DNA from: Marinoscillum sp.
Lineage (GTDB): Bacteria; Bacteroidota; Bacteroidia; Cytophagales; Cyclobacteriaceae
Assembly (NCBI GenBank): GCA_024305105.1
Contig: JAMWZA010000032.1
Coordinates: forward strand, 1-44,291
Reading direction: 5' to 3'
DNA: 44,291 nucleotides
The notes beneath the pieces are model-generated. The model had not been told where the DNA came from. It did no database searches and was given only the letters and a program-made list of their open reading frames with translations. Made by a program: the position numbers and the translations under genes. This document shows, in pieces, positions 32,929 to 44,291 of this stretch (positions within the stretch are counted from its first letter, which is position 1; every line of letters begins with the position of its first letter).

Positions 32929-33013
32929 AGAGGAGTGGCAGAGTGGTCGAATGCGGCGGTCTTGAAAACCGTTGTACCGCGAGGTACCGGGGGTTCGAAT
33001 CCCTCCTCCTCTG
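32929..33013 (+). tRNA. tRNA-Ser(UGA)
   Basis: An 85-base cloverleaf. The acceptor stem AGAGGAG (32929-32935) pairs with CTCCTCT (33006-33012), with discriminator G at 33013. The anticodon TGA is at 32963-32965 in loop CTTGAAA. A long variable arm (GTACCGCGAGGTACC region) is typical of class II serine tRNA. The T-arm GGGGGTTCGAATCCCTC includes one G-U pair. CCA is not encoded. It is the likely integration site of the island that starts with the integrase behind it. Confidence 0.97.
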
Positions 33014-33036
33014 CTTTTAAGGAATCAAATCCGAGC

Positions 33037-33114: not shown

Positions 33115-33150
33115 GGTTAACAATTCGGTTAACAAGGAAAGTGCTAACCG
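33115..33150. repeat. GGTTAACA repeats upstream of the integrase
   Basis: GGTTAACA occurs twice, 12 bases apart (33115-33122 and 33127-33134), and a partly inverted copy GCTAACCG follows at 33143-33150. Spaced direct repeats between a tRNA and an integrase gene could be integrase arm-type binding sites, but the function is a guess. Confidence 0.4.
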
Positions 33151-33207: not shown

Positions 33208-33222
33208 AGGGATTCGAACCCT
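33208..33222. repeat. Inverted copy of the tRNA T-arm sequence
   Basis: AGGGATTCGAACCCT matches in reverse complement 14 exact bases of the tRNA-Ser T-arm (GGGTTCGAATCCCT at 32991-33004). It cannot form a tRNA by itself. It may be part of the attachment region or a remnant of another tRNA-targeting insertion. Confidence 0.5.
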
Positions 33223-33269: not shown

Positions 33270-34517
33270 ATGGCAACTCATTCTTTCAGCATTCTTTTTT
33301 GGCTCCTAAATAATCGCGTAAGCAAGAAAACCGGTGAATCTCCTATTATGGCTCGAATTACCGTGAATGGTAAACGGGCTGAGATAGCTACCGGTAAGAA
33401 AATACTACCAAGCAAGTGGAATGTGAACTCTGGTAGAATGAAGGGAAGCTCAGAGGAGGCTCGGGTATTCAACCGAGCCTTAACAAATATGTATATGGCC
33501 ATCGAGAAGATCTACGATGACCTGAGATCTAAAGATCAATACGTGTCAGCCCAAGCCATCAAAAGCATCTACCAGGGGAAATCTACCCAACAGCACTCAC
33601 TCCTTGAGCTATTCAGATATCACAACGAACAAATCAAGGCTCAGATTGGGCAAGGGTATTCAGAAGGTACCCTAGAAAGATACGAGACTACCAGAAAACA
33701 CACCGAGGGATTTATCAACTATCACTATAGAAGGGATGATTATGGACTCAATGAGCTGAAATATGATTTCATTACTGAGTTTGAATTCTATTTAAAATCG
33801 GTAAAAAAAATAGGTCATAATACCACTATGAAGTATCTGAGAAACTTCAAGAAGATCGTATTGATAGCCCTGAAAAATGAATGGATATTGAGAGATCCAT
33901 TTGCGAAGTATCAAATGTCCCTGAAGGAGGTAAAGAAAGATTACCTGACCAAAGAGGAGATACAAGCACTTTACAACAGAGAGTTTGAAATGGAGCGCCT
34001 GGAGCATGTTAGAGATATCTTTCTGTTTTGCTGCTATACAGGGTTGGCTTATGCAGATGTGAAGAAATTGACACCTGACAATATATCTAAAGGCCTGGAT
34101 GGGGAATACTGGATATTCGTTGATAGAACAAAGACAGGAAGTTCATCAAATGTCCCATTGTTGCCGATTGCCGCAGAGATCATGAATAAATATAAAGAAC
34201 ATCCAATGGCCGTCAACTCTGGGACGCTGCTGCCAGTGATCTCTAATCAGAAGATGAATGCTTACTTGAAGGAGATGGCCACTCTCTGCAAAATCAATAA
34301 GAATATCACCTTCCATATGGCCAGGCACACATTCGCTACAACTATTACACTTTCTAACGGAGTGTCGATTGAAACAGTGAGTTCGATGCTTGGGCACAAG
34401 AACTTAAAGACGACTCAGATCTATGCAAAAGTGGTTCAAGAGAAAGTAAGCCAAGACATGCAGAAGCTGAAAGGAATCCTAGGTGGTCCTGGTATGATGA
34501 AGGCTTCTAATCAATGA
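33270..34517 (+). CDS. Tyrosine recombinase (integrase), Bacteroidetes type
   Basis: This 415-residue integrase has an N-terminal arm-type binding domain (about 1-105), a SAM-like core-binding domain (about 110-215) and a catalytic domain. Catalytic residues visible are K288 in DRTKTGSS, H349-x-x-R352 in HMARHTFAT, H376 in LGHKNLK and Y385 in TQIYAKV. The first arginine, expected in a TGLR motif, is alanine (TGLAYADV, A260). IntDOT of the Bacteroides element CTnDOT also lacks this arginine (it has serine), so this fits an active Bacteroidetes enzyme. It lies 256 bp behind tRNA-Ser and would catalyse integration of the island there. The gene has its own upstream region. Confidence 0.95.
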   Translation: MATHSFSILFWLLNNRVSKKTGESPIMARITVNGKRAEIATGKKILPSKWNVNSGRMKGSSEEARVFNRALTNMYMAIEKIYDDLRSKDQYVSAQAIKSIYQGKSTQQHSLLELFRYHNEQIKAQIGQGYSEGTLERYETTRKHTEGFINYHYRRDDYGLNELKYDFITEFEFYLKSVKKIGHNTTMKYLRNFKKIVLIALKNEWILRDPFAKYQMSLKEVKKDYLTKEEIQALYNREFEMERLEHVRDIFLFCCYTGLAYADVKKLTPDNISKGLDGEYWIFVDRTKTGSSSNVPLLPIAAEIMNKYKEHPMAVNSGTLLPVISNQKMNAYLKEMATLCKINKNITFHMARHTFATTITLSNGVSIETVSSMLGHKNLKTTQIYAKVVQEKVSQDMQKLKGILGGPGMMKASNQ

Positions 34518-34701
34518 ATTGATCTACTACTTCCAAGTCGATCCCAGAGTACTCTGAAAACTCATAGATGGTCACCAGCTGGTGATCATCTTTTTTTAGA
34601 TGGCTCTTGATATCTTGGATCATTTTACGTCCATAACGCTCACTTCTGCCAGTGATCCGCTGAATATCCTTGGGGTAAATTATGACTCTCGTTAGCTTCA
34701 T
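34507..34701 (-). CDS. Small helix-turn-helix-like protein beside the integrase
   Basis: This 64-residue protein, read from ATG 34701 (a further ATG at 34719 adds six residues), begins MKLTRVIIYPKDIQRITGRS and goes on ERYGRKMIQDIKSHL. The I-x-x-I-T-G-R-S-x-R-x-x-x-x-x-M-I-x-D-I-K pattern looks like a DNA-binding helix-turn-helix of the kind found in small excisionase-like proteins. Its end overlaps the integrase gene by 11 bases on the opposite strand. An excision or regulatory role is plausible from position only. Confidence in a real gene is fair; the function is tentative. Confidence 0.6.
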   Translation of the reverse strand: MKLTRVIIYPKDIQRITGRSERYGRKMIQDIKSHLKKDDHQLVTIYEFSEYSGIDLEVVDQFID

Positions 34702-34847
34702 TTGGGAGTGGTAATACACTATCCATACTTAGTCCATGCGGCATCTTCGGCAAAAACTACCAGAAGGTATTAAGACCGGAAGCCGCTTCTTGTGACACAT
34801 CTTTAAATATGTTCTTTTTAGGCCATAAACCAAACATTTTTAACATT

Positions 34848-35621
34848 ATGGCTCGACAAAAGGGTATCATTAAACTGGAAGGAACCATCGGGGATGTGTC
34901 CTTCTACAAGAGTAAAGACGGCTACTTGGCCAGGGAAAAAGGTGGTGTGGATGGGGATCGAATCAAGAACGACCCAGCGTTCCAAAGGACACGCGAGAAC
35001 GGATCGGAATTTGGGCGGGCGGGTAAGGCTGGCAAGCTTATTCGCACAGCTTTCAGGCCACTTCTATTGAAAACATCAGATAGTAAGGTTACTTCCAGGT
35101 TGACCAAGCAACTAATGACTGTTCTACAGTCCGACCCTGACCACCCCAGAGGTGAACGAAAGGTGGACAATGGAAACCTAGAACTGATCCAAGGTTTTGA
35201 TTTCAACGCTGCTGGTAGGTTAGAAGCAACCTTGTATGCTCCATACGATGTGACGTTTGACCGAGCTGGTGGCACTGCATCTGTAGACATTCCAGAGTTT
35301 ATTCCAGCGAACAGCCTGGCATATCCTCAAGGGGCAACTCACCTGAAAATGGTAGCTGCTGTATCGGAGGTGAATTTTGACAATGACGAATTCACTTACA
35401 ATATGGTAGAGTCTGCAGAGGTCGAAATCACTAATGCTGTGACCGGTCCTTTGAAGCTGGATGTTGCTTATAACGCTGAAAGTCAGGAATTGTTGATGAT
35501 CGTATTTGGAATTGATTTCTACCAATCTGTAAATGGGCAAATGTACCTAATGAAGAATGGTGGTTACAATTGTCTGGCTCTGGTAGAAGTTGACAAGTTC
35601 ATCCAGCTCCAACAAAATTGA
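34848..35621 (+). CDS. Conserved Bacteroidota protein starting MARQKG, unknown function
   Basis: This 257-residue protein starts at ATG 34848; a frame from 34809 adds 13 residues without pattern. The N-terminus MARQKGIIKLEGTIGDVSFY is followed by KDGYLAREKGGVD, then NDPAFQRTRENGSEFGRAGKAGKLIR, a helix rich in Arg and Ala. The C-terminal half is beta-rich. The N-terminal layout reminds me of DUF6266 proteins but the sequence is different. There is no signal peptide, membrane helix or catalytic motif, so a structural or binding role seems more likely than an enzyme. It lies behind the integrase and 9 bp before the DUF5675 gene, as the first gene of a three-gene unit. Confidence 0.75.
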   Translation: MARQKGIIKLEGTIGDVSFYKSKDGYLAREKGGVDGDRIKNDPAFQRTRENGSEFGRAGKAGKLIRTAFRPLLLKTSDSKVTSRLTKQLMTVLQSDPDHPRGERKVDNGNLELIQGFDFNAAGRLEATLYAPYDVTFDRAGGTASVDIPEFIPANSLAYPQGATHLKMVAAVSEVNFDNDEFTYNMVESAEVEITNAVTGPLKLDVAYNAESQELLMIVFGIDFYQSVNGQMYLMKNGGYNCLALVEVDKFIQLQQN

Positions 35622-35630
35622 TAATTCAGA

Positions 35631-36254
35631 ATGGAAATAACCCTATTCAGGAAATATCATGAGATGGGCACTAATGGGAAGCTCAAGGATGGTGAGCAGT
35701 TGCTCTGCCACACCATAGAGCTTCCCTGGCTCCAAAACAGGCAAAACGTTTCCTGCATCCCGGAGGGACGATATCAAGTGGTCAAGAGGAATACAAAAGA
35801 ACGTGGAGACCATCTTCATGTGATTGATGTGCCAGGTCGATCCTGGATCCTATTTCACCCTGCCAACAATGCTTTGAAAGAGATCAAAGGGTGCATTGCG
35901 CCAGTGAGCAAATTGGATGCTCCGGGAATCGGGTCTTTGTCCAGGAAGGCTACAGACAAACTCTTGGGTCTTCTCTTTGAGGCCATAGATCGAGGTGAGG
36001 AAGTTTTTATAACCATTAAAAAGGAGGTCGATATGAATATCATCAATAGAGTGAAGGCACCCACTCCCAAGTTTTTCAAGGTGCTGAGAAATGTCGGTTT
36101 AGCTCTAGCTGCTGCCGGAGGAGCTATTTTAGCTTCACCCATTGCTTTGCCAGCTGGCATTGTCACTGTTGGAGGTTACTTGATAGCTGGAGGAAGTGTG
36201 TTGTCGGCAGTTAGTCAGGCAACCGTTGAGGAACCTACAACTGATCGGCCATGA
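35631..36254 (+). CDS. DUF5675 family protein with a hydrophobic C-terminal extension
   Basis: This 207-residue protein consists of a DUF5675 domain (about 1-130) and a hydrophobic tail. The domain begins MEITLFRKYHEMGTNGKL and carries ELPWLQNRQNVSCIPEGRYQV, DVPGRSWILFHPANN and GCIAPVSK, the segments by which I recognise it. The tail (about 147-195, VGLALAAAGGAILASPIALP) contains long glycine/alanine-rich membrane-like helices. The DUF5675 fold is often seen in phage- or mobile-element-related clusters; its activity is not known. The last four bases overlap the next gene (ATGA). The combination with a membrane tail suggests a membrane-located role. Confidence 0.8.
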   Translation: MEITLFRKYHEMGTNGKLKDGEQLLCHTIELPWLQNRQNVSCIPEGRYQVVKRNTKERGDHLHVIDVPGRSWILFHPANNALKEIKGCIAPVSKLDAPGIGSLSRKATDKLLGLLFEAIDRGEEVFITIKKEVDMNIINRVKAPTPKFFKVLRNVGLALAAAGGAILASPIALPAGIVTVGGYLIAGGSVLSAVSQATVEEPTTDRP

Positions 36255-36460
36255 GTCATTCTAATCATATAGGCACTAAGGCCGGTACAATTGGAGGAAC
36301 ATTGCTGAGTATTATTCCCAACCTGACTGGGGCAGACATTCTTAGGACAGTCCTCTTGGCTGCAATTGGGGCGGTGGTGAGTTTCGGTATATCCATGTTG
36401 ATGAAATGGATCGTAAGGGCGTTCGGTAAGCGACCCTCCTCCAACAGGCCAACTATGTAA
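36251..36460 (+). CDS. Small membrane protein, holin-like in size
   Basis: This 69-residue protein starts MSHSNHIGTKAGTIGGTLLS and holds a long hydrophobic region from about 10 to 55, including DILRTVLLAAIGAVVSFGIS. It ends with the basic tail KWIVRAFGKRPSSNRPTM. Two helices with a Gly/Ala-rich core and a charged C-terminus are typical of holin-like proteins, but also of many unrelated small membrane proteins. It overlaps the DUF5675 gene by four bases and is followed at once by a strong terminator, so it closes the three-gene unit. Confidence 0.7.
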   Translation: MSHSNHIGTKAGTIGGTLLSIIPNLTGADILRTVLLAAIGAVVSFGISMLMKWIVRAFGKRPSSNRPTM

Positions 36461-36493
36461 AACAGGCTCCCGGATATTTTGGGAGCCTGTTTT
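36459..36493. terminator. Strong terminator closing the MARQKG/DUF5675 unit
   Basis: AAAACAGGCTCCC pairs perfectly with GGGAGCCTGTTTT across a 9-base loop and T-rich flanks exist on both sides. It overlaps the stop of the small membrane gene and lies just behind the convergent DUF6943-like gene, so it can serve both. Confidence 0.92.
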
Positions 36494-36495
36494 GT

Positions 36496-36967
36496 TTAAT
36501 CCAGTTCTCGAAACGTGTCCAGTAAGAAAGCCATTTTTAGTTGCTCTATCAAGTCCAATTGTTTTGTGATGTTCTTGGTCTTGGCTTCAAGTCCTTCGAG
36601 AGCTAGCAACCTATCTCGGATTCTGTCTATCGTACTAGGGATAGTGTGAACCAAGAATCTGAAGCCCAGTGCGAAGGTCATTAATTCTGAGAAACGGGAT
36701 GACAGATCCAACCAGATGCTTTTTGAAATAGCCTGACTTCCACAAGGCAAAACATAGCCAGTAAAACAGGTGTCGGTTTTCCTCAAATTCAGTGCAAACA
36801 AGGTAACAGTTTGGGCAAGGCTTGTCCAGGGGTTTTCCGGCATTCAGGCCTTTTGACAAAACAAAGAAATGATGGTTCTTCGGAATTTCTCCTCCTCCAA
36901 AAGTGGATACGCGGTATCTAAACATAGTTTGAGCATTTAAAAAGTTATGCTCAGTCCAGTTTGTCAC
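36496..36967 (-). pseudogene. DUF6943-like gene split by a +1 frameshift
   Basis: The first part (36967 to about 36650) encodes NHHFFVLSKGLNAGKPLDKP, CPNCYLVCTEF, FYWLCFALWKSGYF and GSVIPFLRINDL, the segments I associate with DUF6943. That frame then stops at 36635. The family normally continues with a helical C-terminus. Such a sequence (STIDRIRDRLLALEGLEAK, then KQLDLIEQLKMAFLLDTF) is present in the overlapping frame 36496-36843. A +1 shift upstream of 36635 would join the two into about 150 residues. It is probably a recently broken gene or a sequencing error. The function of the family is unknown; the CPNC motif might bind metal. Confidence 0.65.
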
Positions 36968-37036
36968 CGCCTGCGGCGCATAAATCCCAAAAGAAAAAAA
37001 GAGAAAAAAGAAAGCTTAATATCTTTGAAGGCACCA

Positions 37037-37927: not shown

Positions 37928-38073
37928 GATATAAATGTTGGTTAGAAATGCGCAAAGATTCCCGATTGTTATGAGCTAATCTAATGCAGGTAAAAGAGCC
38001 CTCAGCCAGCGTTAGCATCGCGGGCCTTAGCGGGCGCCACCACCAGCCTGCCAGAAGATAATGACCAAAGGAA

Positions 38074-38101
38074 ATGGCTGGGAGTGCGTCCCAACAGCCA
38101 T
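38074..38101. repeat. Hairpin in the GC-rich region
   Basis: ATGGCTG-GGA and TCC-CAA-CAGCCAT form a 7 + 3 bp stem around GTGCG. The stem is interrupted on one side by CAA. Confidence 0.55.
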
Positions 38102-38604
38102 GGCATTAATGATCATCTTTTTTACAAGTTAAAATGGCTGTCGAGACGGTACTGGTGGTGGCCGCAGGCCCGCACAAACAATGGGCAGTGGCTGGGCTGG
38201 GAGCTGGCCAGGCGGTTGGAATGGAGGCAGTCGATTGAGGGATAATGCGTTGATCAGTGTGAGGGGTTCCCTCGATGCTGCTGGAACAGGGTTGGCCGAG
38301 AGGCCTGCTCCCAGAACAGGGAGAACTGCCGTGATGACCAGACGGAAAGCAAAGCAGAGGATGTGACATACTCTGAAAGACCCGCAGGGCAGACAGTGTT
38401 CCGTCAGTTGGCGGATCTCTGGCTGGTATGGCGTATCCTATGCAGCTCGGGCTGGGCAGCACTCCGCTTTACCTGCTGGGAGACTGACCAATTTTCGATG
38501 GAACTGGAATAGGGCTCTAAATGAACTCTTTGGTGGGTACCGGAGGGAGACTGATATGTTGCACGATAAGCAAGTTTATTAAGGAGTGGGCTGGAAAAGC
38601 AAGG

Positions 38605-38799: not shown

Positions 38800-39732
38800 A
38801 TGAAAAATCCTAACCTTATCTGGCCACTCTCCATATTATTCCTGATGCATATAATTCCGTCATTTGGGCAAGCGCCAAGTGATCGCTATAAGGATATAGT
38901 TATTGATCCAAGTTATGAGCATAATAAATGGGGTGTGGAGCCGTCTGATATGGTTTATCAATTCGCAGCTTATATTTCTTCTTATGATAGTGATGATGAC
39001 AATGATGGGGACGGCCAAGGTGATATATGGGGTATTCCTGAATGGGTCGCTTATGAAGTGAAGGAAAGAAATCCTCAAAGCACTAACCCAGATTATTCAA
39101 GACCTAGAAAATGGTTAACAGATGAACTGGGAAATGAAAAGAGAATTGTACCTGATGATGCCACGTATTATGTTGGTGGTACGACTAAAATGCGCGAGGT
39201 AAAAACTGATTATCGCTATGTGCGTGGGCATATGTGCCCCAAGAATGCAGCAGATCGTATTAGTCTGGAGGCTGGCTATAATACTCATAGTACACTTAAT
39301 GCTGTTCCTCAACTACAATGGCAGAATAACGGAATATGGAAACGCCTGGAGGAGGATATTGAAGAATGGGCGGATAAAGAAGGGAGCATTTGGGTGGTCT
39401 GTGGTCCCGTGTTTTTTGGTAAAAGCCCTGCAGTATGGCTTGGTCAAAAAGGAGAAGTTCAAGCAGCTGTACCTGATGCCTTATTTAAGGTTGTGATTAA
39501 GATGGCTGGAAATGGAGCGGTTGAAACTCTTTCCTTTCTTATGCCTAATGTGGTGCCAAAAGCTGAAGATGATTATAGTCACTTTTTGGTAAGTATTGAT
39601 CGTCTTGAGGAGCTAACAGGGTTGGACTTTCTGAGTAATATAGACGACCCTCTTGCCGATTCTATTGAGTCAAAATATGAGGGGCTTAGTGATTCGGAAA
39701 GACGGGGTGTTGTGGAGAAGTGGTTTGATTGA
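38800..39732 (+). CDS. Exported DNA/RNA non-specific endonuclease
   Basis: This 310-residue nuclease of the NUC1/endonuclease G family begins with a signal peptide (LIWPLSILFLMHIIPSFGQ). The catalytic His lies in the RGH motif YVRGHMCPKNAADR (H144), where classical members have D-R-G-H. The metal-binding Asn region follows in TLNAVPQLQWQNNGIWKRLE. A strand near GSIWVVCGPVF completes the betaBalpha-Me core. An unusual Asp-rich stretch (SYDSDDDNDGDGQGD, about 61-75) may bind calcium. It would degrade extracellular or periplasmic nucleic acids. It has no operon partner: a non-coding GC-rich region lies upstream and the HigBA pair downstream, convergent. Confidence 0.92.
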   Translation: MKNPNLIWPLSILFLMHIIPSFGQAPSDRYKDIVIDPSYEHNKWGVEPSDMVYQFAAYISSYDSDDDNDGDGQGDIWGIPEWVAYEVKERNPQSTNPDYSRPRKWLTDELGNEKRIVPDDATYYVGGTTKMREVKTDYRYVRGHMCPKNAADRISLEAGYNTHSTLNAVPQLQWQNNGIWKRLEEDIEEWADKEGSIWVVCGPVFFGKSPAVWLGQKGEVQAAVPDALFKVVIKMAGNGAVETLSFLMPNVVPKAEDDYSHFLVSIDRLEELTGLDFLSNIDDPLADSIESKYEGLSDSERRGVVEKWFD

Positions 39733-39884
39733 ATATATGGCACCAATTTTATATACGCTTGGTGTCACGAGCTGGAGGAATGGCATAAAGGGGTTATTTC
39801 AAATTTGAGATTGATAAGCCGCGATCAAGTGTTTGACCTATGTCTCTGAGGAATTATGAATAGGAAGGAATACCCAATTGTGTG

Positions 39885-40346
39885 TTAGACTACCTGCCTT
39901 GCCGGCAGGCAGGCTTCCAATTCCTTTTTGGTGTTTATCACACTAGCGTTCCGAAGTTTGGGATCAACTTTCAATGTATAGGGACGGTTAAACGCATCCT
40001 GATTCATACCAAAATGATCCGCCAATTTTCGGATTACCTCTTTGGAAAGTCCTTTCTTATAATTCAAAATATCAGAAACCAACCCCTTGCTAACATTTAG
40101 AATTTTCACCAAATCCTTTGCCCTCAACCTGTGATCATCCATTAATGAAACCAGGAGCTGGATGGGATCTACTTCTTCAAAGGTGTTATTCTCCTGATCG
40201 TACTTTTCAATGAGCACAGTTAATAATTCTATTTCCTCCTCTACCTCTGGAGTAACCTCATCCTGAAAAGCTAATTGCTCCACCAATTGGCAATACTCAT
40301 CATACTGCTCTCTCGATTTGATCACTTTGTATTTTAATGCTTCCAT
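39885..40346 (-). CDS. higA: HigA-type antitoxin with helix-turn-helix domain
   Basis: This 153-residue protein has an N-terminal helical part (EALKYKVIKSREQYDEYCQL), a linker with acidic residues and an XRE-type helix-turn-helix at about 68-115 (LRAKDLVKILNVSKGLVSDIL, then LSKEVIRKLADHFGMN). Together with the HigB gene three bases upstream it makes a type II toxin-antitoxin pair, with the toxin first as is usual for higBA. The antitoxin would neutralise the toxin and repress the operon, probably through the inverted repeat ahead of higB. The last residues (ACLPARQVV) come from a palindromic repeat that has run into the end of the gene. Confidence 0.88.
   Translation of the reverse strand: MEALKYKVIKSREQYDEYCQLVEQLAFQDEVTPEVEEEIELLTVLIEKYDQENNTFEEVDPIQLLVSLMDDHRLRAKDLVKILNVSKGLVSDILNYKKGLSKEVIRKLADHFGMNQDAFNRPYTLKVDPKLRNASVINTKKELEACLPARQVV
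39893..39913. repeat. GC-rich palindrome forming the 3' end of the antitoxin gene
   Basis: CCTGCCTTGCCGGCAGGCAGG is a nearly perfect palindrome centred on GCCGGC. It encodes the LPARQ-like tail of the antitoxin on the minus strand. Such palindromes, giving PAGRQ-type tails, occur dispersed in many Bacteroidota genomes. Confidence 0.75.
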
Positions 40347-40349
40347 TTT

Positions 40350-40682
40350 TCAATAATCATTTACCGCGTACTGCTCATTCTTATCACACAACCTATCATA
40401 CTCCGCATGGGTCCCCAGCCAACAAACAAAGAGGTGAGCTGCTTTAGTACCGAACAGGTATTTACAGATCATTCGATAGTTATTTCCTCCAATATTAAAA
40501 ACCACTCTATCACATCCATTGCCTAAAAGATCTGCAGAACCAAACGTCTTCTTTATATCATCTGGTTTATCCCAATCTGCTCCTTTCAAAATCTCCAACC
40601 AAATACCAAATGAAACCTTGCTTCTTGCTTGCTTCCTGGTGTAGTCTTCTATTGTTTGCTTCTTTATGAGGTGTACTTTCAA
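40350..40682 (-). CDS. higB: HigB-type mRNA interferase toxin
   Basis: This 110-residue toxin of the HigB/RelE superfamily cleaves mRNA on the ribosome when free of its antitoxin. Family segments are FGIWLEILKGADWDKPDDIKKTF, DRVVFNIGGNNYRMICKY and the C-terminal LFVCWLGTHAEYDRL, whose W-x-G-T-H-A-x-Y-D signature is characteristic. It starts 29 bases after an inverted repeat likely to be its operator and ends three bases before the antitoxin ATG, so both are made from one transcript. All motifs look intact, so the toxin is presumably functional. Confidence 0.92.
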   Translation of the reverse strand: MKVHLIKKQTIEDYTRKQARSKVSFGIWLEILKGADWDKPDDIKKTFGSADLLGNGCDRVVFNIGGNNYRMICKYLFGTKAAHLFVCWLGTHAEYDRLCDKNEQYAVNDY

Positions 40683-40710
40683 TGTAAATATACGAGTATG
40701 AAGTAAGAAT

Positions 40711-40729
40711 AGTTCACGTAAAGTGAACT
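40711..40729 (-). promoter_or_regulatory. Probable autoregulatory operator of higBA
   Basis: AGTTCAC-GTAAA-GTGAACT is a perfect 7-bp inverted repeat with a 5-base spacer, placed 29-47 bases upstream of the higB start. HigA-type antitoxins bind such palindromes to repress their own operon. The assignment rests on symmetry and position. Confidence 0.7.
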
Positions 40730-41376
40730 TTATTTACCTGAATTAAATCTGATTTCTGTAACGAAATTAACATAATCACCATAACCATCAAGGGCATAAT
40801 ATTCGATGATGTATCGTTTTAACTTCAAAAGAAAACTTCTATTCTTAACCAACCAAGGTTGATTCCGCTTTACGGTAGATATCAGTGGATGACTCATCTG
40901 CCACTCTATTAGACAATGTGTCCTTGTCACTTATCTTTGAACTTATTGTCCAGGTCTATTGAACCATAGGTGCTAAGGATGTTATAACTAAAGCTGTGGA
41001 AGGTTCTGTTGGTTAGGTTGGATACCCATGGGTATTTTCGTTGAAACTGTCTTCTGTACTGATCCAGTTTCTCTTTGGATAGCTTCTTGTTTTCAAGAAT
41101 AGCCTGATACTCTCCATTTATTGAGTCTGCTTCTAGTATGAGACGGTCAATCATTTCATTGGCGGCATCTTTGGTAAATGTAACAGCCAAAATTTTGCTA
41201 GGTTTCACATTTTTTTCAAAAACGAGGCTTAGTATCTTACGAATGATGGTTGCTGTTTTTCCGGCACCTGCCCTGGCTAAAACAAGTACCCTCGAATTGT
41301 CTGTGAGTACCGCTTCAATTTGTTTGTCGTTGAGTCCATGGAGGATTTTATTGTTGGTTAAGTCTGACATACTCAT
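40730..41376 (-). pseudogene. Broken UvrD/Rep-family helicase
   Basis: The first 149 residues (ATG 41376 to TGA 40927) form the start of a superfamily 1 helicase: Q motif LNDKQIEAV, Walker A ARAGAGKTAT (K40), motif Ia ILAVTFTKDAANEM and TFHSFSYNIL. Family members exceed 600 residues, so most of it is missing. Past the stop, another frame reads ISDKDTLSNRVADESSTDIY and a third holds LKLKRYIIEYYALDGYGDYV and VNFVTEIRFNSGK. The last resembles the region following motif Ib in related UvrD proteins. The gene appears to carry two frame changes and a 3' deletion ending at 40730. It begins eight bases after the nucleoid-protein gene, in its operon. Confidence 0.7.
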
Positions 41377-41383
41377 AAAATGA

Positions 41384-42427
41384 TTAATCCTCTTGATCAT
41401 AATAGATCTTATAGAACTTCTTGCCCGAATCTGGATCAACACCTTTCTCAATTAGGTTTCGATTACCATGGATATAGATGTGAAAGTTCTTGTCCAGTTT
41501 TAAAACGCTTTTGAAGACTCTGGATTTCTTTTTCACAGCCTGATCTGATATTTCAAACGACCTAGGTGTTTCTAGATCATTTTCTTCCTGAAACTGAGTC
41601 TCAAACTGCTTAAATGAATCTATTAAATCCGGTCTCTTTAGGACGGTGTTCATGAATTGATCATGGTCAAATTCTTTGTTTTCCTTAAAAAAGTTCATTG
41701 ACTTATTAAGAATGTCAGCTTGGTCGGCACGATCAACTGTCGGATCTGACATCAATTGATTTTTCACAAAGTCTTTAGTAAGGGAAAGAAAATTATTGGT
41801 GAGAAAATAATCGTTTTGTGCTGGGCGTAAATTCAAAAAGTCATTCAACCAAAATTTAGCTTCTTCATTCTTATTTGTACCATTAACTAATTGCACTTTA
41901 TATCCTTTGTCTGACTCAGTGTTTAATACTAAGCATCCCTTATCAAGTTTTGTGAGATTAATCCCTTTGTCACTGATAAATTCAAATGACTGTGAAGTTG
42001 GCTCTACTTTCAAGTAAGTATCTCTAGTTTCCGATTTAAAAATTCCAAGTCCATCAACTAATTCGTCTTCAATAAGGATGTCCCTAAATCTGGCAATGTA
42101 TAATTCGCCCCCCTTCACTTTAGGATGTGTAGAAACCTCATAAAGGTGCTTGGCAATATCTTTTGAGCTTTGGGTAAGACTATTCACATTATTTAAAATC
42201 GTGCGTGAAAAATTAAATACCTCATTGTATTTAAGGTCGGTAGGATGAGTAAAGTTATAAAACTCAGATCCTTTGAATGGTGACAGGAAATAGGTTAGCA
42301 ATAAATCTCTAATGGAAGTATCTGGGTCAATATTTTGCTTGGAGAATGTAATGCCTTCATCACGTAATTTATTTCCGACTTTATGCACAATCAATTCATG
42401 CATGGAGCAGTTTGAAAAATCAATCAT
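41384..42427 (-). CDS. Nucleoid-associated protein, NdpA/YejK (37-kDa) family
   Basis: This 347-residue protein follows the layout of the NA37 family. The N-terminus reads MHELIVHKVGNKLRDEGITF, then RDLLLTYFLSPFKGSEFYNF. Downstream come the characteristic GGELYIARFRDILIEDELVDGLGIFKSE and EAKFWLNDFLNLRPAQNDYF segments. YejK of E. coli associates with the nucleoid; its mechanism is not settled. Stand-alone copies beside helicases occur in phage-defence-like clusters of Bacteroidota. The start overlaps the preceding small ORF as ATGA, and the UvrD-like gene begins eight bases beyond its stop, so all are one operon. The gene is intact. Confidence 0.8.
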   Translation of the reverse strand: MIDFSNCSMHELIVHKVGNKLRDEGITFSKQNIDPDTSIRDLLLTYFLSPFKGSEFYNFTHPTDLKYNEVFNFSRTILNNVNSLTQSSKDIAKHLYEVSTHPKVKGGELYIARFRDILIEDELVDGLGIFKSETRDTYLKVEPTSQSFEFISDKGINLTKLDKGCLVLNTESDKGYKVQLVNGTNKNEEAKFWLNDFLNLRPAQNDYFLTNNFLSLTKDFVKNQLMSDPTVDRADQADILNKSMNFFKENKEFDHDQFMNTVLKRPDLIDSFKQFETQFQEENDLETPRSFEISDQAVKKKSRVFKSVLKLDKNFHIYIHGNRNLIEKGVDPDSGKKFYKIYYDQED

Positions 42428-42621
42428 ATCAAGTTATAATTTTTTACTTTTTCCATTTTCAAACTCTCTATCTCCTCACGAACTTCTCGCTCAAGCTTTT
42501 GAAGATTCGATATTTTTTTTGCTTGATAATTTTTTATCAGGGTGAATTCTGAAATAAACTCTCCATCTCTAGTTTTACTGAAGATGGCATTTGAAAAACC
42601 ATACTTAACCTTACATTTCAA
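42424..42621 (-). CDS. Small ORF lacking an ATG, possibly the -1-frame end of the upstream gene
   Basis: From TTG at 42621 this frame encodes 65 residues starting LKCKVKYGFSNAIF and ending in a charged helix (LQKLEREVREEIESLKMEK). The frame stays open further upstream, through ILLLDSIVIEYSFSW, into the end of the large upstream gene, whose stop lies at 42671-42669. No ATG exists in the open part. A -1 slip on the run of six A residues (42686-42681) would fuse it to the large protein as a beta-rich tail. It may therefore be a C-terminal domain joined by frameshifting, or a broken or misread gene. Its stop overlaps the nucleoid-protein start, which suggests it is translated. Confidence 0.5.
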   Translation of the reverse strand: MKCKVKYGFSNAIFSKTRDGEFISEFTLIKNYQAKKISNLQKLEREVREEIESLKMEKVKNYNLI

Positions 42622-42668
42622 GCCTGATATGTTTAGCCAACTGAAACTATATTCAATAACAATCGAGT

Positions 42669-44291
42669 CTAAAAGAAGAATTTTTTGAATTCTATGTCAG
42701 AGAGTTCAGATAGACCTGCCAAATTTCTACCATTGAAATAGGTCACTAGATCATGTTCCTTTTTATCGCGAAGATTTTCAGGAATTTCTATCTCTTCATC
42801 ATATTTGAATTTAATGGAAGAAATATCCTGTTCTTCAAAGGTTTGAGAGGAAGAAATCTCAGAAAAACTAAGTAAAAAATTCACTCGTTCCTCGTTAGAC
42901 TGGAATTGTGAGAATTGGATTTTTATTGTTTCAGATTGAATGATCTCTTTCGAGACTAATGCTTCATCTATCCTCATAATTATCCTATTTGCAAGAATCT
43001 TGTCCGTTTTAGTTGATGTGTTGATAGTATTGACAATCATGTTATCAAATTCATCAATCTTCATTGAAATAATCACTTTTCCCCATGTTGTATTAAGAGA
43101 CAGTTGATTGGTAAGGTCTTTTGAAGATGTGATAATATTTAAAATAATTTCATTCTTATTATCCGAGTTCTGCTTGAATTTTAGGCTGCCAGAAATCTCT
43201 AAATCCAGATCTTTAAGAATTTCAGTCTTGTTGATTATAGGAAGTGATTTTGCCACTTCGTTTATTGTAGTAGGCTTTATTAATTTCTTATACTCTGGAA
43301 CGGATTTAAGAGGCTTATCCTTAACCTCAATCATACTTTTAAAATCCTCGATTTCTGAGGGACTGAAAAGTCTTGTACACATAATCTCAATTAATCTCTT
43401 GCGATTGGCACCTTTTATAAACACACCTCTTTTGGCAAGGAAAAATTTGATGTCCTTTGGCGTTACGGCTTCCGTATTGAGAAACGGCTTAAGAATATCA
43501 CCGTAAGGTAATTGGTTAGTAAATACATCATTAATCTTATTTGAACTTTTGGAAGTTGTTTTAGAGTTCAAATTCGTTTCATTCCTTAAGTTTTGAGGTA
43601 ACGGATACTCAGCTAAGATTTTGGAATTTAAGCTCTCATATTTTTCAACTCGAAGTTTTTCAGACAGTTCAGGGTTATTAAATTCAGAAATTATAGTTAA
43701 CACTTCATTCCTATATGCTGAATCAAAATCGGGAAAATATATAATGTACTCATTCCCAAAGCCGCTAGTAAGTTTTACGAGAAGCCAAATCACTTTTTTC
43801 AGATGTTCTGGATCATATGAGTCTTTACAAAATAACAGAACACTAATTCTATTCACATCCTCCTTAACTATTGGCAATATTCTAGAATTAAGGAACTCAG
43901 GAGGCATCTGCAAATCTCTTTGACCAATATTTTCTGGATTCATATTGGCTTCTGTAATTGGGTACAGAAACTTTAGTTTTAACCCTTCGCGATAATTATG
44001 GGCAGCTATTGAGGCTGACGCCAAAAAATTGATATGATTATTATCAAGGATAATATAGGATATGTGTTCATCGAGTTGTTTTTCCTTCATGAAATTAATC
44101 AACTCAACATTGGTCTCATGTTCGGTAACACTAGAACTAAACCAAAACAAAATGCAATAAACGCTCTTGTATTTTTCATCATACCGATTCATTATTTCTG
44201 GCAAATAATAGCCGTTAAATATCGAATTGAATTTGTCTATCTCTTCCTTTAGAGGCAATGATGAATCTTTTGAATACGTATCATCTAACCG
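42669..44291 (-). CDS. Large protein with a SAP-like segment, 5' end outside the window
   Basis: The frame is open to the right edge with no ATG in the last 33 bases (a TTG lies at 44258), so the start is probably beyond the window. At least 540 residues are visible. The first 200 form an alpha/beta pattern (YCILFWFSS, ISYIILDNN, ISVLLFCKD, EYIIYFPDF). Around residues 255-300 of the TTG-numbered protein, TPKDIKFFLAKRGVFIKGANR with KRLIEIMCTRLFSP resembles a SAP/HeH-type DNA-binding helix pair. A beta-rich C-terminal part follows. No catalytic motif is recognised. It is the first visible gene of the operon with the nucleoid protein and the UvrD remnant, which suggests a DNA-related, perhaps defensive, role. 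Confidence 0.7.
   Translation of the reverse strand, partial: RLDDTYSKDSSLPLKEEIDKFNSIFNGYYLPEIMNRYDEKYKSVYCILFWFSSSVTEHETNVELINFMKEKQLDEHISYIILDNNHINFLASASIAAHNYREGLKLKFLYPITEANMNPENIGQRDLQMPPEFLNSRILPIVKEDVNRISVLLFCKDSYDPEHLKKVIWLLVKLTSGFGNEYIIYFPDFDSAYRNEVLTIISEFNNPELSEKLRVEKYESLNSKILAEYPLPQNLRNETNLNSKTTSKSSNKINDVFTNQLPYGDILKPFLNTEAVTPKDIKFFLAKRGVFIKGANRKRLIEIMCTRLFSPSEIEDFKSMIEVKDKPLKSVPEYKKLIKPTTINEVAKSLPIINKTEILKDLDLEISGSLKFKQNSDNKNEIILNIITSSKDLTNQLSLNTTWGKVIISMKIDEFDNMIVNTINTSTKTDKILANRIIMRIDEALVSKEIIQSETIKIQFSQFQSNEERVNFLLSFSEISSSQTFEEQDISSIKFKYDEEIEIPENLRDKKEHDLVTYFNGRNLAGLSELSDIEFKKFFF

Follow-up and report, generated by a model that had tools for sequence, protein, structure and literature searches.

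A MARQKG/DUF5675 gene module in Marinoscillum sp. probably marks the end of a family of tRNA-integrated genomic islands in Bacteroidota

What kind of element lies directly behind a tRNA-Ser gene in Marinoscillum sp., and what might its genes accomplish? The window analyzed here (44,291 nucleotides, positions 1 to 44,291 of contig JAMWZA010000032.1, assembly GCA_024305105.1) contains at this place a tyrosine integrase gene, an opposite-strand gene for a small helix-turn-helix (HTH) protein and, in front of a terminator, three genes for a MARQKG-family protein, a DUF5675 enzyme and a small membrane protein (Table 1). This arrangement had been described in an earlier note on the same DNA, and all of its parts were verified. 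The locus very probably represents one end of a family of tRNA-integrated islands with a conserved MARQKG/DUF5675 module. To the fuller reading, in which the window holds the tRNA-side end of an integrated island that shares the backbone of this family and would follow the scheme of release by lysis set out below, we assign a probability of about 0.5.

The module consisting of the HTH gene on the minus strand, MARQKG, DUF5675 and membrane proteins is genuinely linked and directional, and it recurs at dozens of Bacteroidota loci, which is more than chance would produce. A total of 99 loci was studied, 18 from the genomes of relatives, one from a plasmid and 80 from genome contigs, the latter being those most similar to the query among at least 540. 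Two distant paralogues (L046, L047) were excluded before counting; some redundancy is present, as L061 and L033 denote one and the same place and L071 and L073 are 98.5% identical. Clustering placed the HTH protein at 87 of the 99 loci, DUF5675 and/or the hydrophobic tail at 70, the small membrane protein at 52, DUF6943 at 38 and an integrase at 12, while direct searches yielded 88 for HTH, 56 for DUF5675, 66 for the tail, 51 for the small membrane protein, 41 for DUF6943 and again 12 for integrase. Where 3.5 kb or more was available on either side (67 loci), the HTH gene lies on the minus strand within 1.2 kb upstream of MARQKG in 54 cases, and a DUF5675, tail or small membrane protein gene follows within 3 kb downstream, likewise in 54. 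DUF6943 is found downstream on the opposite strand 33 times, never downstream on the same strand and never upstream, and an integrase is present at seven of the 67.

A comparison centred on DUF5675 gave the same order. In 19 genomes, most of which had been picked for carrying MARQKG (G358, G032 and G036 were dropped), 29 of 37 DUF5675 genes stand immediately behind MARQKG on the same strand, with 6-108 bp between the match ends in these 29 pairs; one of the eight remaining genes is situated at a contig end. Several MARQKG pairs within a single genome share about 1.7-2.2 kb and other pairs 0.4-5 kb, and of four inspected pairs three lose their similarity at the operon terminator and one within the tail gene. 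The DUF5675 enzyme (about 135 residues) and the hydrophobic tail (70-90 residues) are separate genes in most of the displayed relatives, so that the tailed DUF5675 protein of the earlier note is a correct description of the window and of a small number of relatives, L030 and L056 among them, and does not hold for the family at large. Of the co-occurrence that had been anticipated, the part concerning DUF5675 stands, whereas the integrase is no general companion; the genes are neither scattered independently, nor did MARQKG emerge from the phage searches reported below.

Where, then, is the integrase? In ten genomes, chosen from 12 loci most of which have signs of a tRNA end, the positions of 22 strong integrase matches were set against those of 29 strong MARQKG matches. 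The integrase faces MARQKG in six pairs at distances of 23.7-45.1 kb. Within 150 kb there is just one further pair, 136 kb apart and not facing, three further MARQKG copies have an integrase on the same contig more than 0.7 Mb away, and for the rest no strong integrase is present on the contig. Four of the six islands (A-D, stretches L231-L238) were read with their 97 listed proteins, 50 of which entered the family scans. All four share the integrase, a replication-like protein, a DnaC-like loader, DUF6943, a membrane tail, DUF5675 and MARQKG; three possess an excisionase-like HTH protein, and in three a tRNA adjoins the integrase. The small HTH gene of the module is unscored in the islands because only open reading frames (ORFs) of at least 70 residues were counted. 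By comparison, the shared island backbone comprises the integrase, usually an excisionase-like HTH protein, the replication-like protein, the DnaC-like loader, variable cargo often including defence genes, and DUF6943, and it is closed by the MARQKG/DUF5675/membrane-protein module at the end far from the integrase. The layout of the window differs: here integrase and MARQKG module are immediate neighbours and do not occupy opposite ends.

The cargo contains AbiEi/AbiEii in islands A and B, a type I restriction-modification system in A and Shedu together with DUF4365 in D, and CHAT and RteC are also among the island families. Defence genes were recognized in three of the four islands, none being obvious by eye in island C. 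Terminase, portal, capsid or tail genes were not confirmed among the 25 of 43 PHROG families shown for the 50 scanned proteins; the sole match with a terminase name better fits another family (phrog_7035), and a HerA/DUF87 domain is listed. In M. pacificum, excisionase-like and VapE-like helicase genes precede MARQKG (L033, 6090-8584; L034, 5568-8248), and the HTH gene was not found at these two loci.

A circular counterpart exists in Marivirga sp. BKB1-2, the plasmid p1 of which (NZ_CP129969.1, 25,320 bp) is the only one among 72,556 plasmid records to carry MARQKG. Its gene order starts with the DnaC-like gene, which spans the start of the record, and continues with the replication-like, excisionase and integrase genes, the junction, HTH, MARQKG, DUF5675, membrane tail and cargo, with GGACAC repeats on either side of the junction. 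This order matches what is expected for an excised island, and we infer that p1 is such an island and not a plasmid that gained the genes. By eye, pieces resembling a reverse transcriptase are visible in the cargo of the circular form (L049, 22466-23317).

Two features of tRNA-integrating elements are present: a tyrosine integrase stands beside an intact tRNA in the window and in three of the four islands, and the site used in the window is unoccupied in the sister genomes G002 and G004. A tRNA or transfer-messenger RNA (tmRNA) gene is present within 2 kb upstream of MARQKG at 13 of the 99 loci, in 12 of these on the MARQKG strand, and none was detected downstream in the examined stretches; proximity was judged by this upstream/downstream contrast and not by chance expectation. 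The compact order tRNA/tmRNA-integrase(+)-HTH(-)-MARQKG is common to the window, L029, L054, L056 and L083. Paired short direct repeats 3' of the tRNA terminator occur in the window, L054, L056, L083, L066, L068, L071, L087 and L088; their letters vary by lineage, an inverted copy is added in some loci, and the layout suggests arm sites for the integrase. A scan for the tRNA T-arm motif around the HTH gene at 82 loci revealed eight direct copies in the upstream kilobase (76 kb in total; 0.105 per kb versus 0.007-0.084 elsewhere) and seven inverted copies (0.092 versus 0.028-0.063 per kb), a modest excess.

The tRNA-Ser site of the window is occupied, and the same site holds core genes in G002 and G004. 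Orthologues of the left flank were found in five sister genomes. In G002 and G004, tRNA-Ser is followed without insert by core genes, namely one for a small protein and one that we take to be YihY/BrkB-like; G005 has other genes at the corresponding site, in G001 tRNA-Ser is located about 10 kb away on the other strand, and G003 has none in the stretch examined. In the window at least 11.3 kb past the tRNA do not contain the BrkB-like core gene. The BrkB-like gene of the window's genome resides on contig C18 behind two copies of the tRNA-Ser end, an exact one of 21 bp and one of 13 bp. A comparable remnant (83% over 102 bp) is present beside the intact tRNA-Ser of G004, which does not harbour this island, and the C18 remnant may therefore predate the island. 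A right-hand direct repeat of the tRNA end was sought within the window, and none of at least 12 bp exists there on the same strand, for which reason the right end of the island probably lies outside; a same-strand repeat of the tRNA 3' end of 12 bp or more is likewise absent downstream in L054, L056 and L083.

Table 1. Positions of the features in the Marinoscillum sp. window.
Feature	Position	Strand	Remark
tRNA-Ser(TGA)	32929-33014	+	Intact copy, occupied site; ARAGORN and Rfam
Paired repeats GGTTAACA / GGTTAACA and inverted GCTAACC, 3' of the tRNA terminator	33115-33150		By eye
Inverted T-arm copy, 14 bp, immediately 5' of the integrase	33208-33221	-	
Tyrosine integrase	33270-34517	+	Pfam PF17293, PF13102, PF00589; PHROG integrase, E 2.1e-47
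Small HTH-like protein	34507-34719	-	Same family on the opposite strand 5' of MARQKG in most loci
MARQKG-family protein	34848-35621	+	Basic N-terminal 110 residues, acidic remainder
DUF5675 enzyme with a fused, hydrophobic and holin-like tail	35631-36254	+	PF18925, E 3.8e-28
Small one-segment membrane protein, 69 residues	36251-36460	+	Single hydrophobic stretch
Intrinsic terminator	36459-36493	+	Perfect 13-bp stem, then TTTGTTT; read from sequence
DUF6943 gene, conserved opposite-strand neighbour past the terminator	36496-36967	-	Two frames in the window
Non-coding block B, repeated, often alongside DUF6943	37986-38506	+	Repeat matches in the genus
Probable cargo as far as the contig end, with a nuclease-like gene, an HTH regulator, a helicase piece and unknowns	38800-44291		

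Within the window, the repeats behind the tRNA terminator are predicted as possible arm-type binding sites of the integrase, and the 14-bp inverted T-arm copy could be a remnant of an attachment site or a chance match. The integrase comprises the Pfam domains Arm-DNA-bind_5, Phage_int_SAM_5 and Phage_integrase, and the 3' end of its ORF overlaps that of the HTH ORF by 11 bp. The HTH protein is weakly similar to Cox-like excisionases (PHROG, E 0.019), its profile found no relevant relative among the sequences of the Protein Data Bank (PDB), and it is a candidate excision factor or repressor. Alignment sets the start of MARQKG at 34848, the ORF list having given 34809. The tight spacing and the strong terminator noticed earlier are borne out by a 9-bp gap between MARQKG and DUF5675, a 4-bp overlap between DUF5675 and the membrane protein gene and the stem of the terminator, which is missing from the consensus scan because its loop has nine bases and the tool is limited to eight. 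The DUF5675 domain occupies residues 5-114 of its product. The region from 38800 onward is probably island cargo, and the entire stretch presumably belongs to the island; its genes include one for an HTH protein that resembles PD-Lambda-2_B and one for the N-terminal piece of a UvrD-type helicase.

The DUF6943 gene of the window looks frame-disrupted, its N- and C-terminal parts standing in different frames: PF22105 matches 36635-36967 (-) with E 1.3e-33 and 36496-36843 with E 0.032 only. A relationship of DUF6943 to type I specificity subunits was considered and not retained (weak PADLOC match, E 0.07; no sequence relative in the PDB at E<=1). In several loci a leader that is pyrimidine-rich on the gene's strand and a short GC hairpin precede DUF6943 (window, 36987-37016). 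Block B has 13 matches, its own copy included, in four of the six genomes of the genus and no Rfam match at gathering score; it also accompanies DUF6943 in stretches where MARQKG was not seen, and in L169 and L170 paired integrase-like genes are close to it. In stretches from the same genus in which MARQKG was not seen (L168, L171-L174), DUF6943 is adjoined by DUF6266 (PF19781), which suggests that DUF6266 is an analogous partner of DUF6943. By eye, DUF6266 resembles MARQKG in gross layout, with a glycine-rich start, a middle stretch and a beta-type end. On the other hand, DUF6266 and MARQKG lack significant profile similarity, and homology of the two is unsupported (hhalign probability 0.9% and 0.3%).

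What is the MARQKG protein? It had been said to be of no known function, and in agreement with this neither the window protein nor 38 aligned members found a family: searches of Pfam, PHROG, NCBIfam and PADLOC gave nothing significant for the former, and Pfam nothing significant for the latter (best E 0.055). Its charge is strongly split, with an isoelectric point of 10.1 for the first 110 residues and of 4.05 for the remainder. The AlphaFold model (mean predicted local distance difference test (pLDDT) 86.4, predicted template modelling (TM) score 0.77) starts with a hairpin, continues with a helical stretch and ends in a beta-rich second half. The check for a capsid-like fold that the earlier note had proposed came out negative: Foldseek returned no match at E<=0.001 in PDB or BFVD, and the best matches are partial beta-sandwich overlaps with query TM scores of about 0.2-0.3. 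MARQKG occurs, often in multiple copies, in 27 of 296 genomes sampled across Bacteroidota and in 12 of 59 relatives, the own genome being included in both counts; four of the 12 have distant copies only, and one genome has 28 matches of any strength. The distant paralogue L046 (G000:C101:33443-34231), with one such match in each of five sister genomes, is 22-29% identical to MARQKG within the genus; DUF5675 was not seen nearby, and it is possibly a domesticated copy. L035 and L036 are solo copies near genes for XRE-type regulators and exhibit internal duplications.

The hint at a role in cell exit came from DUF5675 and its membrane partners, and it gains from the phage record: among tailed phages DUF5675 belongs to gene groups of lysis type, which points to such a role. 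It matches 123 phage records and is also present in one microvirus. In Vibrio phage vB-Vv-ZX4290 it is located between a late activator and TraR/DksA-DUF2730-terminase genes, which we take to be the Mu-type lysis position. Eight of 22 DUF5675 loci from IMG/VR were viewed, and at least six of them have, by eye, genes for small membrane proteins a few genes away; tail-type genes are near DUF5675 in some, most clearly in L176, L178 and L184. Residues H61, H76 and C88 are invariant across 24 sequences, and a conserved histidine and cysteine characterize the YkuD motif, to which these residues may correspond. The model of DUF5675 (pLDDT 77) weakly resembles DpaA, presumably also YkuD-type, and Tlde1a, the match to DpaA, the best relevant one, having a probability of 0.99 and a TM score of 0.41 but an E-value of 0.03, second by E-value. 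The DUF5675 profile found nothing relevant among PDB sequences, and in the parts of two articles available to us DUF5675 is mentioned and assigned no function (PMC10671443, PMC9229204). We rate the odds that the purpose of the module is release through lysis as even to slightly better.

These observations can be combined into a scheme. The integrase and the small HTH protein, acting as directionality factor or repressor, would excise the island, and the replication-like protein and the DnaC-like loader would copy the circle. The MARQKG operon would be turned on late, whereupon DUF5675 as a YkuD-like peptidoglycan enzyme and the holin-like small membrane proteins could open the envelope such that the DNA exits the cell, either in the particles of a helper phage or in particles or vesicles involving MARQKG. 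It is doubtful that MARQKG is a particle protein; slightly more doubtful still is that it has a structural or DNA-escorting function in a new kind of particle or vesicle system lacking any recognized capsid fold, which would make the islands a widespread and so far unrecognized virus-like or satellite class of Bacteroidota, one that carries defence genes, replicates as circles of about 25-45 kb and leaves by means of its own lysis genes.

Several findings weigh against the island reading with its lysis scheme. In the 19 genomes, 30 of 59 MARQKG matches have no DUF5675 behind them, that is solo and divergent copies exist, and 23 of the 29 strong MARQKG copies in the ten genomes lack a strong facing integrase within 60 kb. 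Neither the window nor the compact loci showed replication-like or DnaC-like genes, and only five and seven, respectively, of 101 stretches, which are short, contain them. In p1 the integrase and MARQKG are each split into two ORFs, DUF5675 has a short frame, and the junction contains no tRNA T-arm motif. The 21-bp remnant on C18 is no proof of the island's right attachment site, since G004 has a comparable remnant beside its intact tRNA; the contigs, moreover, are not joined. MARQKG was absent from 50,697 phage records (tblastn) and from a pattern-seeded scan of IMG/VR (92 pattern matches, no relative), which counts because viromes should hold packaged elements, and the PDB and BFVD searches gave it no capsid or other informative fold. 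Lysis is a putative activity of the module, its odds hardly above even. The copies without DUF5675 or integrase nearby would also suit an abortive-infection effector: HTH or MARQKG would detect an infecting phage, upon which the lysis genes would bring about early death of the cell, and this function would account for the place of the module beside other defence cargo; lysis proteins are suitable for suicide, and several islands have defence genes in their cargo. We consider this improbable, since the module belongs to the backbone in all four islands, at the end opposite the integrase, while the cargo varies; furthermore, MARQKG matches none of the PADLOC models, and the matches of the remaining window proteins are weak (best E 0.03). 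As a rule, the timing of phage-type lysis genes serves release.

Equally improbable in our judgement is that the islands are integrative mobilizable elements (IMEs) transferred by helper conjugation, with DUF5675 opening the wall locally and not for lysis. RteC has a role in CTnDOT, and an RteC-like protein (PF09357) is encoded in islands B and D as well as in L032, L086 and L130; tRNA sites and a circular form are also compatible with this explanation. Set against it are the Pfam families listed for the 50 scanned island proteins (25 of 33), none of which is a relaxase, the typing of circular p1 as non-mobilizable in PLSDB and the holin-like partners, which better match lysis. The compact order in the window, L029 (the contig of which stops just past the module), L054, L056 and L083, together with the several same-genome pairs sharing only 1.7-2.2 kb, could furthermore point to a small autonomous element of about 3.4 kb, made up of integrase, HTH and the three genes and later picked up by large islands. 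This is the least probable of the three: the repeat of the tRNA 3' end is missing downstream as described, DUF6943 and cargo continue past the module in the window, and an integrase is nearby at only 12 of 99 loci, pointing away from MARQKG in half of them. Of the small mobile element core proposed earlier, the integrative mobile element stands and the self-contained integrase-plus-three-gene unit does not, the integrase facing the module from 24-45 kb in six pairs. An integrated island with the module at its end remains our preferred reading.

The route by which defence-carrying islands are transferred is mostly unknown, and the recurrent backbone described here spans Bacteroidota species; its most conserved part without an explanation is the MARQKG protein, which is coupled to lysis genes of the phage type. 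If the module releases the island, defence genes would have a direct route along which to spread; should it be a suicide device, it would constitute a new type of defence. Having no significant match in the family libraries searched, MARQKG is usable as a marker to find such islands.

How do the islands relate to known systems? No title that describes this island type came up in searches of the open-licence literature. Tailed-phage lysis groups, including Mu-like ones (PV485168.1; IMG/VR L176, L178, L184), likewise have DUF5675 adjoining small membrane proteins, whereas no recognized head or tail genes surround the module in the window and MARQKG was not found in those phages. PICI (phage-inducible chromosomal islands) and P4 satellites have an integrase, excision and replication genes and anti-phage cargo. 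In our four islands such satellite-type genes are represented by the integrase (4/4), the excisionase-like HTH protein (3/4) and the DnaC-like loader (4/4), in the window by the integrase only. The paired islands differ from phage satellites by their size of 24-45 kb and a lysis-type module of their own, and no packaging gene or helper was identified; a satellite nature of the islands is possible. The phage-inducible chromosomal minimalist islands (PICMI) combine the same four traits and are described as having no capsid-remodelling genes (PMC10803314). Bacteroidetes IMEs such as NBU1 also have a tyrosine integrase and excision factors, and an RteC-type regulator is present in some of our islands; known Bacteroidetes IMEs are reported to carry their own relaxase, and four to be mobilized by helper integrative and conjugative elements (PMC5704250), whereas the islands have no relaxase among the listed families and do have a lysis-type module. 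Charybdis elements differ, being marine circles of about 4.6 kb with a putative archaeal host (PMC12324425). The tycheposons of Prochlorococcus are described as having a tyrosine recombinase, a tRNA site, large variable cargo and a wide range of sizes from 4 to 200 kb (PMC10872708). The islands share with them the tRNA site, the tyrosine recombinase and the variable cargo at the level of layout, and are set apart from tycheposons as described there by the MARQKG/DUF5675/membrane module, DUF6943, frequent defence cargo and their Bacteroidota hosts.

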